From Chloroflexota bacterium (GTDB taxonomy: Bacteria > Chloroflexota > Limnocylindria > Limnocylindrales > CSP1-4), in NCBI GenBank assembly GCA_021787395.1, contig JAJYLZ010000001.1, positions 1 through 64,000 of the forward strand: a stretch of 64,000 nt of DNA, given 5' to 3'. Made by a program: the position numbers and the translations under genes. This document shows, one piece after another, positions 50,201 through 59,393 of this stretch (its first letter is position 1; each line of letters begins with the position of its first letter). Below the pieces are notes generated by a model. It worked only from the letters and a program-made list of their open reading frames with translations, had not been told where the DNA came from and searched no databases.

Positions 50201-51544
50201 ATGGAACTGTCCCTGGGACGAATCCGTGAGAGAAGGGCTGCGGCGCCGAGGCACGGCAGTGCAGGCCTTCGCGCGCGGCCTTCGCCCTCACGGGCGCCGG
50301 TCCTCATCGAGGCGGGCACGCTCGCCGACAAGAGCCGGCCGGAGGAGCTCGCCAAGTTCGAGGCGTGCCGGGCCTGGGCCCAGACGGCGGGCGGTGAGGC
50401 CTGGGTCATCGCGGCCGACCTCGTGCCGCCGCGGTGGTTCCGCAACGCGATCCAGCTCCACCTCGCGAGGCTCGACTACCGCGGGGACCCGGCCCTCGCC
50501 GCGGCGATCCGCGCCCGGTGGGAGCGCGGCCGGGCCTCGATCGAGGACCTCGTCCGCGAGCACGCGGACCACCCGCGGCCGGAGGTCGTCGCCGCGGCGC
50601 GCAAGGTCATGGGCGACCTCCTGGCGGAGGGCCGGCTGGACCTCGACCTGGCGACGGTCGTCCCGACCCTCGCCACGATGGTGCGCGCCCGGCCGCGCGA
50701 CCGCGGGATCCTCGAGCCCCCCGGGGTCGTCCGCGACCCCGAGGAGCTCGTCCGGCTCGCGGCCGAGCGCGGCCGCACGGACCTGCCCGAGGACGGCGAG
50801 GCCGAGCCGAAGCCGGACGTGGACCCGGAGAGCATCGAGGACCCCGAGGCGCGCGACGAGTTCGAGCGCAGGCGGGCGGCGATGCGGGCGATCCTCGAGG
50901 GCGCCACCGCGGCCGCGGCCGCGCGCGCCAACGGCCTCGAGGAGCGGCGGGCTCAGCAGCTCTGGAACGCATACGACCAGCACGGTGCGCGGGCGCTGGT
51001 CCCGTACGCGACGCGGCGGGCATCCTGCAGGACCATGCCGCCCCCGGTCGTCTCGGCGATCGAGGAGGTCTACGCGCGGCCCGAGCGCCCGAGCCTCGAG
51101 GCCGTCGTCGACCACCCGGCGGTGCGGCAGGCCGCCATCGACGCGGGGATGCGGCGCACCCCGAGCCGCTACCAGGTCTCGAAGGCGGTGGGCGACCTCC
51201 TCAGGCGGGACCAGAAGGCGCGCGAGGCGAGGGCCGGCCGGAAGCTCGTGCCGCTCGCGCTCAGCGGCCGGGCCGTCACGGCCGAGCAGGTCCCGGGCCT
51301 CGTCTGCGAGTTCGACGAGGCCACGCTGGACGTGAAGGTCCAGGCCCTCTCCGGCGGCCGCACGACGGTGCGCATGCACATCGGCGTGCTCATCGACGTC
51401 GCGACGCGCTACCCGCTGTCCGTCGTCGTGTCGCCCAAGGCGCTCGACCAGTGGGACCTCCGGCGCGCCGTGATCCGCGCGATGCTCGACGACTCGGCGC
51501 TGCGGCTCGAGCACGGTATCCGGGAGGACTCGCCGTGGGCCTGA
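50201..51544 (+). CDS. TnsA-remnant/TnsB-like transposase, N-terminal part (carries first catalytic Asp)
   Basis: 447 aa. Residues about 34-105 (LIEAGTLADKSRPEELAKFEACRAWA... VIAADL) resemble the C-terminal part of TnsA-type endonucleases. Residues about 240-345 look like the helical DNA-binding region of TnsB/Mu-type transposases, and GLVCEFDEATLDVKV (Asp about 372) begins the DDE core. The frame stops at 51544, before the second Asp. A TGA at 50192 prevents upstream extension, so a TnsA catalytic N-terminus is absent. It overlaps the next ORF, which holds the rest of the core in the -1 frame. Confidence 0.78.
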   Translation: MELSLGRIRERRAAAPRHGSAGLRARPSPSRAPVLIEAGTLADKSRPEELAKFEACRAWAQTAGGEAWVIAADLVPPRWFRNAIQLHLARLDYRGDPALAAAIRARWERGRASIEDLVREHADHPRPEVVAAARKVMGDLLAEGRLDLDLATVVPTLATMVRARPRDRGILEPPGVVRDPEELVRLAAERGRTDLPEDGEAEPKPDVDPESIEDPEARDEFERRRAAMRAILEGATAAAAARANGLEERRAQQLWNAYDQHGARALVPYATRRASCRTMPPPVVSAIEEVYARPERPSLEAVVDHPAVRQAAIDAGMRRTPSRYQVSKAVGDLLRRDQKAREARAGRKLVPLALSGRAVTAEQVPGLVCEFDEATLDVKVQALSGGRTTVRMHIGVLIDVATRYPLSVVVSPKALDQWDLRRAVIRAMLDDSALRLEHGIREDSPWA

Positions 51545-52488
51545 CGCCGTGCATCTTCAAGGCCGACAACGGGATGATCGAGCGCTGCAACCTCGCCCTG
51601 CAGATCGCGGGCGAGGTGGCGATGGTCCTCGAGTACGCCCCGAAGGGCGACGCCCACGCGAAGCCGGTCGTGGAGTCCCACTTCAAGGTCCTCAACGACC
51701 GCCTCCTCCACCGGCTCGTCATCACGACCAAGGGCAGCCCGGAAGCCCGCGGCGCCCACGACCCCGACGCGGAGGCGCTCGAGCGCGAGATCACGGCCGA
51801 CCGGTTCGAGCGGGCGCTCATGCAGTGGTACTTCGACGTCTACGCGGCGACGTGGCACGGCGGGCTCCGCGAGCGCCCCCAGGCCGTCCTCCGCGACGGC
51901 CTCGGACGGTTCGCCATCCGCCAGTGGGGCGGGTCGGCCGACGCGCTGCGGCGGATGCTGCGGCGCGACGAAGGCCTGCGCAAGGTCGGGCGCAAGGGCG
52001 TCCACTACCGCCACAACCACTGGTACAGCGCCGCGTGGCTCCGCGACCGGATCGACACGATGGTGCGGATCAAGGTCGACGAGGACGACCTGCGCACTGT
52101 CGACGCCTACGACGAGGACGGGAACTTCCTCGGCGTGCTCCGGTGCGGCCGACTGGCCGACGCGTACGACCGCCCGGTCCCCCGCTGGGAGCTCGACCTC
52201 CTGCGGGCCGCCGAGCGCAAGTTCGCCAGCGGCGACCGCGACGCGGCCGCCAAGCGGACGGACGAGATCGTCTCGGAGATGGGCGCCGCCGACGAGAAGC
52301 GGGCGGCGAGGAAGGCCCACGCCCGGAAGCGCGCCGCCGAGACGACCACCGAGGACATCGTCGCGGCCCTGTCGACGCCCGTCGGCGCCGCCGACGAGGC
52401 CAAGCCGGCCGCGCCGCGGGCGTTCGCCCTGCCGGTCCCGGTCGACCGCGACTACGAGCCCCTCATCCCCACCGACACGGCAGCCTGA
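51535..52488 (+). CDS. TnsB-like transposase, C-terminal part (second Asp and Glu)
   Basis: 317 aa. It opens directly in the DDE core: FKADNG holds the second Asp, and PVVESHFKVLNDRLLHRL holds the Glu exactly 35 residues later, the classical DX35E spacing. The C-terminal domain is basic then acidic, as in TnsB. GTG 51535 is preceded at 6 nt by GGGAGGA, so independent, coupled translation is possible. Relative to the upstream ORF it is in the -1 frame with a 10-bp overlap. It may be a real split gene, a frameshift site or an indel. Confidence 0.8.
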   Translation: MGLTPCIFKADNGMIERCNLALQIAGEVAMVLEYAPKGDAHAKPVVESHFKVLNDRLLHRLVITTKGSPEARGAHDPDAEALEREITADRFERALMQWYFDVYAATWHGGLRERPQAVLRDGLGRFAIRQWGGSADALRRMLRRDEGLRKVGRKGVHYRHNHWYSAAWLRDRIDTMVRIKVDEDDLRTVDAYDEDGNFLGVLRCGRLADAYDRPVPRWELDLLRAAERKFASGDRDAAAKRTDEIVSEMGAADEKRAARKAHARKRAAETTTEDIVAALSTPVGAADEAKPAAPRAFALPVPVDRDYEPLIPTDTAA

Positions 52489-55302: not shown

Positions 55303-56283
55303 ATGCCGAGGCGCGGATGGGCGCAGCTCCCGCTGCGGCCACTGGTCGAGCGGTTCGTCGTCGAGTCGAGGTCCGTCATCGGCGAGGTGACCGAGCAGGG
55401 GTACAGATACGACCTCGGCTACTTCGTCGACTGGATTCAGGCCGAGGGAGTCGCGCCTGTCCTCGGTTCGATCGACCGGTCCCTGCTCGTGAGGTACATC
55501 GCGTTCCACCAGCGGCGGCCAAAGCGCAAGGGCGGCCCCGGGACGCCCTCCTCGCACACGGTCCACACGTACGTGCGCCCCGTTCGAACGTTCCTGCGCT
55601 GGTGCGTGGCGGAAGGCCTCTACCCGTCGGATCCGCTGGCCGGGGGCCGCCGCGGCATCATGCCGAGGCTGGGCAAGCGGCTGCCCCGCACCGCCCGCCC
55701 CGGCGACATCGATATCCTGCTTCGGGGCTGCGAGGGCGATGGGCCCATCCAGCTGCGCGACCGCGCGATCGTGCTCCTCGCCGCGGACACCGGGCTGCGG
55801 ACAGGCGAGCTCTGCCGACTGTCGGTCGGCGACCTCCGCTTGGCGGCCGGGTACCTCGTCGTCCAGCGCGGGAAGTGGGACACCCAGCGCGTGGTGCCCT
55901 TCGGCGACCTGGTCCGCTCGGCGCTGCTCGCCTACCTCGAGCGCGCGCGCCCTGAGCTCGCGGAGGTGCCCGCGTCGGACGTCGCGGCCGGCGCGCCGCT
56001 GCTCGTCAGCGAACGCGGCCTGGCCCTCAAGCCCAACGGGCTGTACCAGGTGGCATGCCGCATCTACAGCAGGGGCGGCGGCGAGGGCCGGTTCGGCCTC
56101 CACCGGCTGCGCCACAACTTCGGGACCGAGGCGATCCGCGCCGGGATGCACCCGCGGATCTCGCAGGCGATCATGGGCCACGCCGACCCGAAGTCGCAGC
56201 TGGTCTACCAGCACCCCACGGCGGACGACCTCGTGCGGGCGCACGCCGTGGCATCGCCCATGCACAGGCGAAGCCGCGAGTGA
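55303..56283 (+). CDS. Tyrosine recombinase/integrase
   Basis: 326 aa. The N-terminal SAM-like core-binding domain (residues about 10-120) precedes the catalytic domain. Catalytic residues are visible: Arg in DTGLRTGEL, Lys in VQRGKWDTQRV, HxxR in LHRLRH, a second His in MGHADPKSQ and Tyr in LVYQH. It lies just 11 bp after the XRE gene in the same orientation. It could resolve co-integrates, be a passenger integrase or be part of the core module; the sequence does not decide. Confidence 0.92.
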   Translation: MPRRGWAQLPLRPLVERFVVESRSVIGEVTEQGYRYDLGYFVDWIQAEGVAPVLGSIDRSLLVRYIAFHQRRPKRKGGPGTPSSHTVHTYVRPVRTFLRWCVAEGLYPSDPLAGGRRGIMPRLGKRLPRTARPGDIDILLRGCEGDGPIQLRDRAIVLLAADTGLRTGELCRLSVGDLRLAAGYLVVQRGKWDTQRVVPFGDLVRSALLAYLERARPELAEVPASDVAAGAPLLVSERGLALKPNGLYQVACRIYSRGGGEGRFGLHRLRHNFGTEAIRAGMHPRISQAIMGHADPKSQLVYQHPTADDLVRAHAVASPMHRRSRE

Positions 56284-56345: not shown

Positions 56346-59300
56346 ATGCCGGGTCACTACCGGGCCGACGACGAGTCGTTTCTGCTGTTTCGACGGCCCG
56401 GCGCGCCGAGGTGGCGGCAGCCGCAGATTGGAGCGCTCGGCGCGCTTGCCGCACGCTGGTCGCAGCCCCGCTCCGAGCCGGCCTTAGTCAGTCTGCCCAC
56501 AGGCTCAGGCAAGACAGCCGTTGCCCTCGCCGCGCCCTACCTCGTCGGCGCCCGGCGCGTCCTCGTGGTCGTCCCGTCGGCGGCCCTCCGCGAGCAGACC
56601 GCGAGCCGGTTCGCCGACCAACGGCAGCTGGTCGCGATCGGCGCCCACGACGGAAGCAGGTTGCCCAGCGTCCACGAGCGCATCGGCCTCGTGAAGGACT
56701 GGGGGACGCTCGCAGAGTACGACGTCGTCGTCGGGCTCCCGGACTCGCTGAGCCCCGCGCACTACCCGGACAACCTGCCGCCGCGCGACCTCTTCGACCT
56801 CGTGATCGTGGACGAGGCGCACCATGCCCCCGCCGCCACCTGGAGAGCGATCCTCGACCACTTCTCGGACGCGAGAGCCCTGCTCCTGACGGCCACGCCG
56901 TACCGCCGGGACGGCAGGCACCTGCCCGGGACGTCGGCATACCACTACCCGGTGCGCCAGGCGCTGGACGACGGGGTCTTCAAGCCTGTGAGGGCCCAGA
57001 TCCTGCCGCCCTCAAGCACGACCGATCGGCGCTCCCTCGACCTCCAGATCGCCTCCGAAGTCGCTCGGCTCCTGGGCGAGCCTGAACACGCGACGAGCGC
57101 CGCCCTGATCCGGGCATCCTCAGTCGAGCGCGCCAAGGAGCTCGCAACCGTCTACAGCGACGTGGGCCTCGACCCCGTCCTCCTGCATTCACGCCTCGCA
57201 CGCGCGACGCAGGAGTCGATCGTAACCGGCCTCCGCGACGGAACGCACCGCGCGGTGGCGGTCGTTGGCATGCTGGGCGAAGGCTTCGACCTGCCGCGGC
57301 TCCGCATTGTCGGCTACCACGACAAGCACAGGTCCCTGCCCGCGACCGCACAGCTGATCGGCCGCCTCGCACGCGTCGACGAGGGCTTCCCGCAGGAGTC
57401 CGTGCTCGTGGCCGTGAGGGACGTCGACGTCTACCCCGAGCTCGAGGGCGTGATCCGCGGCCTCTACGAGGAGGACGCCGACTGGGCGGCCGCGCTGCCC
57501 GGCATCCTCGACAAGAGAATCGCCACCGAGGCTGCCGACCGCGAGTACGCCGCCTCCTTCACGCCTCCCCCTCCGGCGCTCGCCGTGGGAGCCATCCATC
57601 CGATCCGGCGTTCGGTCGTCTACGAGCTGCCCTCCGACACGAAGGCGCTGGCAGACCTCCTCAGCGGCGCGGTTCCCGACGAACTGGTGCCCGGCCGGTC
57701 CGTCGCAGGCTCGACCGTCTTCTACTCGCACCTCGATGCCGCGAGCGACACGCTCCTGCTCGTGACCTCCACGGTCACGACTCCCCGCTGGCTGCATGAC
57801 TCCGGGCTCGACACGCCGGAGTACCAGCTCGTCCTCGTCTCCCTCCGCCAGGCCCCCCGCACCGACCTCCCGGCGCTCCTCTTCGTGAACGCCGACGACG
57901 ATCGGATCGCGCGCGAGGTCAGGAAGCTCGTAGGGGTGCTCGACGACGCCCGTCGCGCCGACCCTTCACGCCTGAACCAGGCGTTCGAGGGGCTGGCGCG
58001 CGTGTCGGTCAGCTCCGTCGGGGTCCGCACGACGCTCACGGGCAGGGGCACGCCGAGCTACCGCATGTTCGCCGGCAGCAGCGTCGACCGCGGCATGCGC
58101 GACGGCGACACGGCGTTCGGCGCGCTGGGCCACGCGATCATCCAGGCCACCGACGCGGCGGGCACGTTCTCGGCTGGCGTGGCGACCGGCAAGGGCAAGT
58201 ACTGGGAGATGCGGTACGCGGCGCTCCGCGAGTACGCGGGCTTCATCTCCTGGCTGGCCGATGAATACTGGTTCCCGAAGGACTCGGCAGCCGGCCAGCT
58301 GCTCCCCCAGGTGTCCCGCGGCCGCCGCCTCGACGCGTGGCCAGTGTCCGACCCGATCGCCGCGGAGTTCGACCACGCGCTGCTCGGCCAAGGGTGGCAC
58401 ACGGAGGACGGCGCGTATCTCGAGGCGCTCGAACTGGGCGTCTCGCCCGCGTCGGGTCCGTACCTGCCCTTCGGCCTTGCCTGGACTGACCGCAGCGGCG
58501 TCGCGCATTCGTGGAACGGGCACTTGACGCTCCATGGCGAGGTTGAGCCGGTCGGTCCCGACATCCGGGTCGGTCAGGGGTTTGCGGCCACCCGGCCGCT
58601 GTCAGACGTCCTAAGCAGCCGTCCGCTGACCGTGTTCTTCGTCAACGGGCTCGTCGTCCGAGGCGCGGTCGCCTACGACAGCCGCTCGCGCTCGCTGGCC
58701 CTCCCCGAGGGTCTGATCGAGGCGCTGGACTGGACGGGGGTGGACTTGACGGCCGAGACGAAGGCGACCGCGGCCAAGCACAACACGAAGGGCGCCAAGA
58801 AGGTGCCACCGGCCCCGGCGCTCCGATCGGTCGACGAGGCCCTCGAGGACTACCTCAGGAAGCGGCCTCGCCGCCTGCGCCACCGCTGGATCCTGGGCAA
58901 CGACGGCCCCGGCGAGTTCGCGGACTACATCGTGGTGGAGCAAGGCGGGAGCCAGTGGGAGGTCTGGCTATGGCACGCGAAGGCAGCCGGCGAGGCGTTC
59001 GCATCGGTTCGCGTGCCGGATCTGGAGAAGGTCGTTCCGCAGGCGATCAAGAGCCGGCGATGGATCACGGACGCGGGCTTCTGGTCTGAGCTCGGCGACC
59101 GGCTGGAGGGCCGCAGCAGGAGTGGACGGAGGGCGGCCGTGCTCGATGGAAGCGAGCGCCTTCTGAAGGCCGCCTGCGGACTGGATCCGCGCCGGCAGCG
59201 AACGGTGTGGACGCGCTCGAAGCCCCATGTCGCTGGCCACATCAGGGTCGTCCAGCCTGGCCTGAGCGAGAGCGAGCTCTCGAGGAAGCTGGCCGCTGGC

Positions 59301-59393
59301 GACCTCCAGGCAGCTCAGTGCCACGAGATCCTGCTGACCCTTCATGACGCAGTCGCGCAGCACGCGTCGGTGGTGGTCCTTGGGTCACCGTAG
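56346..59393 (+). CDS. Large SF2 helicase with nuclease-like C-terminus, probable defence cargo
   Basis: 1015 aa. The SF2 helicase core occupies about residues 25-370: Walker A PTGSGKT (51-57), DEAH (156-159), TATPYR motif III, EGFDLPRL motif V and QLIGRLAR motif VI. The large middle region has no match I recognise. Near residues 853-880, GEFADYIVVEQ...WEVWLWHAKAAG has the E-x-x-D...(h)xK pattern seen in PD-(D/E)XK-like tails of helicase-type defence proteins. ATG 56346 is plausible. It is typical cargo for Tn7-like elements. Anti-phage function is inference; a DNA-repair role is the main alternative. Confidence 0.8.
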   Translation: MPGHYRADDESFLLFRRPGAPRWRQPQIGALGALAARWSQPRSEPALVSLPTGSGKTAVALAAPYLVGARRVLVVVPSAALREQTASRFADQRQLVAIGAHDGSRLPSVHERIGLVKDWGTLAEYDVVVGLPDSLSPAHYPDNLPPRDLFDLVIVDEAHHAPAATWRAILDHFSDARALLLTATPYRRDGRHLPGTSAYHYPVRQALDDGVFKPVRAQILPPSSTTDRRSLDLQIASEVARLLGEPEHATSAALIRASSVERAKELATVYSDVGLDPVLLHSRLARATQESIVTGLRDGTHRAVAVVGMLGEGFDLPRLRIVGYHDKHRSLPATAQLIGRLARVDEGFPQESVLVAVRDVDVYPELEGVIRGLYEEDADWAAALPGILDKRIATEAADREYAASFTPPPPALAVGAIHPIRRSVVYELPSDTKALADLLSGAVPDELVPGRSVAGSTVFYSHLDAASDTLLLVTSTVTTPRWLHDSGLDTPEYQLVLVSLRQAPRTDLPALLFVNADDDRIAREVRKLVGVLDDARRADPSRLNQAFEGLARVSVSSVGVRTTLTGRGTPSYRMFAGSSVDRGMRDGDTAFGALGHAIIQATDAAGTFSAGVATGKGKYWEMRYAALREYAGFISWLADEYWFPKDSAAGQLLPQVSRGRRLDAWPVSDPIAAEFDHALLGQGWHTEDGAYLEALELGVSPASGPYLPFGLAWTDRSGVAHSWNGHLTLHGEVEPVGPDIRVGQGFAATRPLSDVLSSRPLTVFFVNGLVVRGAVAYDSRSRSLALPEGLIEALDWTGVDLTAETKATAAKHNTKGAKKVPPAPALRSVDEALEDYLRKRPRRLRHRWILGNDGPGEFADYIVVEQGGSQWEVWLWHAKAAGEAFASVRVPDLEKVVPQAIKSRRWITDAGFWSELGDRLEGRSRSGRRAAVLDGSERLLKAACGLDPRRQRTVWTRSKPHVAGHIRVVQPGLSESELSRKLAAGDLQAAQCHEILLTLHDAVAQHASVVVLGSP

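Follow-up and report, generated by a model that had tools for sequence, protein, structure and literature searches.

An SF2 helicase with a PD-(D/E)XK-like tail as a candidate single-gene antivirus protein

The helicase locus

The window analysed here, a stretch of 64,000 nucleotides of Chloroflexota DNA, contains a reading frame for a protein of 1015 residues, with an ATG start, a TAG stop and no internal stop codon. In the protein, an N-terminal helicase core is followed by an unclassified middle and then by a nuclease-like tail at the C-terminus (Table 1). Independent relatives match it over its full length at 41-45% identity. A chance open reading frame in high-GC DNA is thereby ruled out, and the gene is genuine.

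A Tn7/Tn5053-like set of transposase, TniB and TniQ genes lies upstream of the helicase, with TniB, TniQ and Mu-C domains detected at 50-55 kb. It is followed by an XRE-like regulator, a tyrosine recombinase and then the helicase itself. The transposase gene (50201-52488) is interrupted near 51.5 kb by a frameshift or an assembly error, leaving its two halves in different reading frames, with Mu-transpos_C in the second. No inverted terminal repeats were found between candidate transposon ends. A sequence-only reading of this DNA had remarked that Tn7-like elements often carry defence cargo; with a broken transposase frame and no element ends found, that remark is unsupported at this locus. 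The recombinase (55303-56283) is XerC/D-like, is encoded on the same strand and ends 62 bp upstream of the helicase. The helicase may have come as cargo of the Tn7-like element or of the recombinase, or may belong to neither. Synteny within the genus breaks off at ~49970, immediately after upp, and is regained only at about 64.9 kb or beyond, which makes the intervening stretch strain-specific as a whole.

The gene downstream of the helicase, P0002 (59732-61360), encodes an orphan protein of 542 residues with a hydrophobic stretch and a charged, coiled-coil-like C-terminus.

Table 1 Features of the helicase gene and its product (coordinates in the window)
Feature	Residues	Position	Strand	Basis
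Gene for the putative helicase-nuclease	1015 aa	56346..59393	+	ORF, full-length relatives
RecA-like helicase domain 1 (ResIII/DEAD)	~23-217	56412..56996	+	Pfam
Motif I / Walker A, PTGSGKT	51-57	56496..56516	+	32-member alignment
Motif II, DEAHH	156-160	56811..56825	+	32-member alignment
RecA-like helicase domain 2, with motif VI (Q336-R343)	~228-397	57027..57536	+	Pfam Helicase_C, alignment
Beta-rich unclassified middle	398-824	57537..58817	+	No family match; model
PD-(D/E)XK-like tail	825-1015	58818..59390	+	PADLOC profile matches, model, alignment
GEFAD motif, predicted metal-binding D860	856-860	58911..58925	+	E857, A859, D860 invariant 32/32
H-x-K motif, at (D/E)-x-K position	877-879	58974..58982	+	H877, K879 invariant 32/32
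Q899, in helix after H-x-K	899	59040..59042	+	Invariant 32/32

Domain organization of the protein

Two RecA-like domains together with motifs I, II, III and VI place the N-terminal part in helicase superfamily SF2. Its Pfam matches to ResIII (residues 23-187, E 7e-24), DEAD (E 1e-12) and Helicase_C (residues 247-344, E 2e-6) all pass the curated cut-offs; the only other Pfam match of the protein is a weak one to SWI2_SNF2. Helicase motifs and tail were aligned across 32 family members sharing about 23-45% identity. Motif I is invariant at P51, T52, G53, G55 and K56, with T57 kept in 31 of the 32, and motif II at D156, E157, H159 and H160, with every position kept in at least 31. The TAT of motif III (182-184) and Q336, G339, R340 and R343 of motif VI are likewise invariant. 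Pfam domains and alignment thus agree with the sequence-only reading, which had called the SF2 motifs intact. The closest solved helicases by sequence are a type I restriction R subunit and XPB/RAD25.

The middle, at about residues 350-825, has no recognised family, as had been suspected from the letters and as searches of Pfam, NCBIfam, PHROG and PADLOC agree. A structure model of residues 398-1015, built from 17 diverse sequences, reaches a mean pLDDT of 83, with the tail mostly above 80; a first model from 7 sequences was poor (pLDDT 62). A Foldseek search of predicted viral structures with the model returned two matches below 1e-3, both to recombination-associated RdgC proteins, and a third RdgC at E 2e-3. 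All three phage RdgC models have a Foldseek probability of 1.00 (E 1e-4 to 2e-3), with a TM-score of about 0.23 by query. RdgC is absent from the top 50 PDB structures found by Foldseek, and a profile comparison of the middle with RdgC is insignificant. We take a DNA-clamp role for an RdgC-like middle as a lead only.

In the C-terminal tail, residues E857, A859, D860, H877, K879, D892, V896, Q899 and R919 are identical in all 32 members. The segment GEFADY...WLWHAK, singled out in the sequence-only reading, is found where it had been placed, as GEFAD at 856-860 and WLWHAK at 874-879, and its key residues are among those invariant. The invariant tail residues equal the helicase motifs in constancy amid freely varying sequence, a pattern that suggests a catalytic site. 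The modelled tail has the order α-β-β-β-α, with a helix at 829-839, strands at 846-852, 861-867 and 870-878, and a helix at 890-903. In the model, D860 starts the second strand and sits beside H877-x-K879, which ends the third, at a spacing of 17 residues. An aspartate and a (D/E)-x-K element are placed likewise in the PD...(D/E)XK motif geometry of EcoRV-type enzymes. K879 is kept throughout, and a histidine takes the place of D/E before x-K in 32 of 32 members; this substitution is unusual for catalysis and counts against a nuclease reading.

Profile searches link the family's tails to PDC-S71, a candidate single-gene system in PADLOC, which is matched by 8 of 13 family tails (best E 5e-12; for example, residues 946-1086 of one relative, L012, at E 9e-8); the window's own tail scores E 0.069. 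The matches cover the C-terminal part of the PDC-S71 profile, about 409-546 of 589, and involve only the tail, the rest of the protein having no match to the model. A literature search under the name PDC-S71 found nothing. One family tail matches Mrr_cat at E 0.011. A profile comparison of the tail with Mrr is insignificant (0.3% probability), with D860 and H-x-K in register with the D and Q-x-K of Mrr. Profile searches against the PDB, with the tail or with middle and tail together, brought up nothing relevant, and a Foldseek search of the PDB with modelled residues 398-1015 gave no match below E 1e-3. Since neither sequence nor fold shows significant similarity to a solved PD-(D/E)XK member in the PDB, the case for a nuclease is made by motif, topology and invariance. 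In these respects, its topology being modelled, the tail is PD-(D/E)XK-like; the likeness is not one of demonstrated homology to any solved enzyme. The PD-(D/E)XK-like character ascribed to it earlier gains from the invariant residues, the modelled topology and the PDC-S71 matches of the family tails, and the protein is very probably a helicase fused to a nuclease-like domain.

Family distribution and genomic neighbourhoods

A collection of 84,980 species genomes contains six loci whose product matches the protein end to end at 41-45% identity. Their hosts are two Microbacterium species, Occultella, Nocardioides, a Thermoleophilia metagenome-assembled genome (MAG) and an actinobacterial MAG. 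Plasmids of Rhizobium, Bradyrhizobium, Pseudonocardia, Pseudomonas, Hymenobacter and haloarchaea carry full-length relatives at about 23-29% identity, and further plasmid members are found in Caulobacter, Roseovarius and others. Family members are also present in about ten IMG/VR viral contigs; in an annotated phage collection, no record matched more than 80% of the protein. The architecture is common to Actinomycetota, Proteobacteria, Bacteroidota, haloarchaea and viral contigs, under no database label other than 'DEAD/DEAH box helicase family protein'. The gene is missing from the 60 nearest genomes and was found in 5 of 399 further genomes of the phylum, which suggests that it was probably acquired horizontally.

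Known defence genes are commoner beside family members than among control genes. We compared the neighbours of 14 chromosomal or viral loci, a non-random sample of 95 genes up to ~8 kb away, with 68 control genes drawn from around upp in the window's relatives and from the window's downstream chromosome. At E<=1e-20 the neighbours matched 196 PADLOC models, a count of models in which one gene may match several, including Hachiman HamB, type I restriction HsdM/R/S and MADS-like mad2. The controls, some of them spurious since open reading frames were called mechanically, matched none at the same threshold. Of 14 plasmid loci inspected, 7 lie within about 10 kb of a gene explicitly annotated for defence: AbiH; AbiE/SIR2; an RM methylase; Abi; a Cap4-like dsDNA nuclease; CBASS/HEPN/AbiE; and type I RM/DUF262. 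No annotated defence gene is present in four more remote stretches of these plasmids, which were sampled from the island-rich ones. Among the adjacent genes scanned in the window itself, none was recognised as a known defence gene.

Over 33 loci no partner family recurs. The largest neighbour clusters are antisense shadow ORFs, and recurrent neighbours are limited to recombinases, type I RM genes and a DUF2235/AAA pair. P0002 has no relatives in 300 genomes of the phylum or in plasmids, so nothing marks it as a partner. On both grounds we reject a partner gene, including the next gene, which had been raised as a possible one.

Individual loci show further features. A DUF2235 protein and an AAA ATPase, possibly a separate system, lie near the helicase on three alphaproteobacterial plasmids (L358, L360, L362). 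At L010:5619-9391, in Microbacterium algeriense, a gene for a Hachiman-like HamB helicase, with a possible HamA upstream, adjoins a family relative and a serine recombinase. At L008:13225-18286, beside another relative, a DUF2357-PDDEXK_7 gene adjoins a match to PDC-M26A, with a GmrSD gene close by.

Relation to known systems and proposed function

In architecture and single-gene status, the nearest likeness is to the helicase-nuclease defence protein Hna, which is DinG/XPD-like, has 845 residues, a reduced Arch domain and a P712 D713...E727-x-K729 site (PMC13381803), and shares a broad distribution with the present family. The published description of Hna sets the two apart: the protein studied here has 1015 residues, a ResIII/XPB-like core and an extra middle of ~430 residues that has no counterpart in Hna. 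Its Pfam matches (ResIII, DEAD, Helicase_C and weak SWI2_SNF2) are not those of a DinG/XPD-type helicase with a reduced Arch domain, its tail has H877-x-K879 against E727-x-K729 in Hna, and Hna was not recognised among its PDB sequence matches. Hachiman (HamAB), like the effector proposed below, couples an SF2 helicase to a nuclease and provides broad defence (PMC12278908), but is a two-gene system; here HamB models match weakly, at 18 bits over the helicase core, and no HamA nuclease gene or other partner is conserved with the helicase over the 33 loci.

In PADLOC, the helicase core scores best (E 5e-9) against the PbeA / CxC ABC-ATPase systems, which feature a fusion of SF2 helicase and DNase like the one predicted here. 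PbeA carries an HKD DNase and works with PbeBCD (PMC10853773), whereas our protein has no conserved partners and its tail is PD-(D/E)XK-like. HsdR resembles the predicted make-up, with an ATP-driven translocating helicase core joined to a PD-(D/E)XK nuclease, but has that nuclease at the opposite end; Pfam detects no HSDR_N in our protein, and HsdM and HsdS are not conserved partners. RadD was rejected as an identity for the protein at 30.9 bits against an NCBIfam equivalog cut-off of 720, and XPB scores 23 bits against 610. On the features tested, the protein belongs to none of Hna, Hachiman, PbeA, type I restriction and RadD.

The family sits among antivirus genes, so the protein is probably a one-gene immune protein. 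Its helicase motifs are intact, its tail motif is invariant, it is conserved as a single gene and its distribution is horizontal and in defence islands; the model adds a predicted tail topology. A single-gene defence candidate had already been proposed from the letters, and it is strengthened by the tail evidence, the defence-island context set against a clean control, the sporadic distribution and the lack of a conserved partner. We consider it likely that the family acts against phages or mobile elements. Our preferred reading, to which we assign a probability of roughly 0.7, is a standalone antivirus helicase-nuclease effector. The N-terminal SF2 helicase/translocase would use ATP to bind and move on foreign DNA, or to sense an abnormal DNA structure. 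The middle may help to grip or recognise DNA, or link the two enzymes. The C-terminal PD-(D/E)XK-like domain, with its H-x-K site variant, would then cut DNA, its presumed target. As trigger we assume a structure or replication intermediate of phage DNA and not a mark of modification; the outcome would be either clearance of phage DNA or abortive infection. In a more specific version, which we regard as improbable, a motor, an RdgC-like DNA clamp and an H-x-K nuclease would together detect DNA topology specific to phage replication, with active-site chemistry unlike that of characterised PD-(D/E)XK defence nucleases.

If the standalone effector is real, a large family labelled 'DEAD/DEAH box helicase family protein' becomes a testable single-gene immune system over bacteria and archaea. 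The invariant H-x-K and the unclassified middle then pose the question of how solo helicase-nucleases tell phage from host DNA without a methyltransferase or a partner.

An unlikely alternative is a type IV-like, modification-dependent restriction enzyme, in which the middle would read modified phage bases, the helicase translocate and the tail cut. No methyltransferase is a conserved partner, as expected of type IV systems; the helicase core matches the restriction-type ResIII, and PADLOC mREase_IV models are matched weakly by some members. Those scores, however, are confined to the helicase core, and Pfam, PHROG and NCBIfam find no SRA, EVE or other modified-base reader in the middle. Somewhat less probable still is a mobile-element function, in plasmid or transposon competition or element maintenance, that travels with defence genes. 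Family members frequently have a tyrosine or serine recombinase as a neighbour or lie on plasmids, and the window's helicase adjoins a tyrosine recombinase and Tn7-like genes, yet the recombinase type varies between loci and over the 33 loci no transfer or replication gene is conserved alongside. A RadD/XPB-like repair or recombination helicase with a nuclease tail and no immune role is the least probable reading: it draws on XPB/RAD25 being among the closest solved helicases, besides the type I R subunit, and on the RdgC matches of the middle, but the RadD and XPB scores given above speak against the housekeeping repair orthology that the sequence-only reading had named as its refutation, the gene is missing from the 60 near relatives, and the family's members sit on plasmids, on viral contigs and in defence islands.
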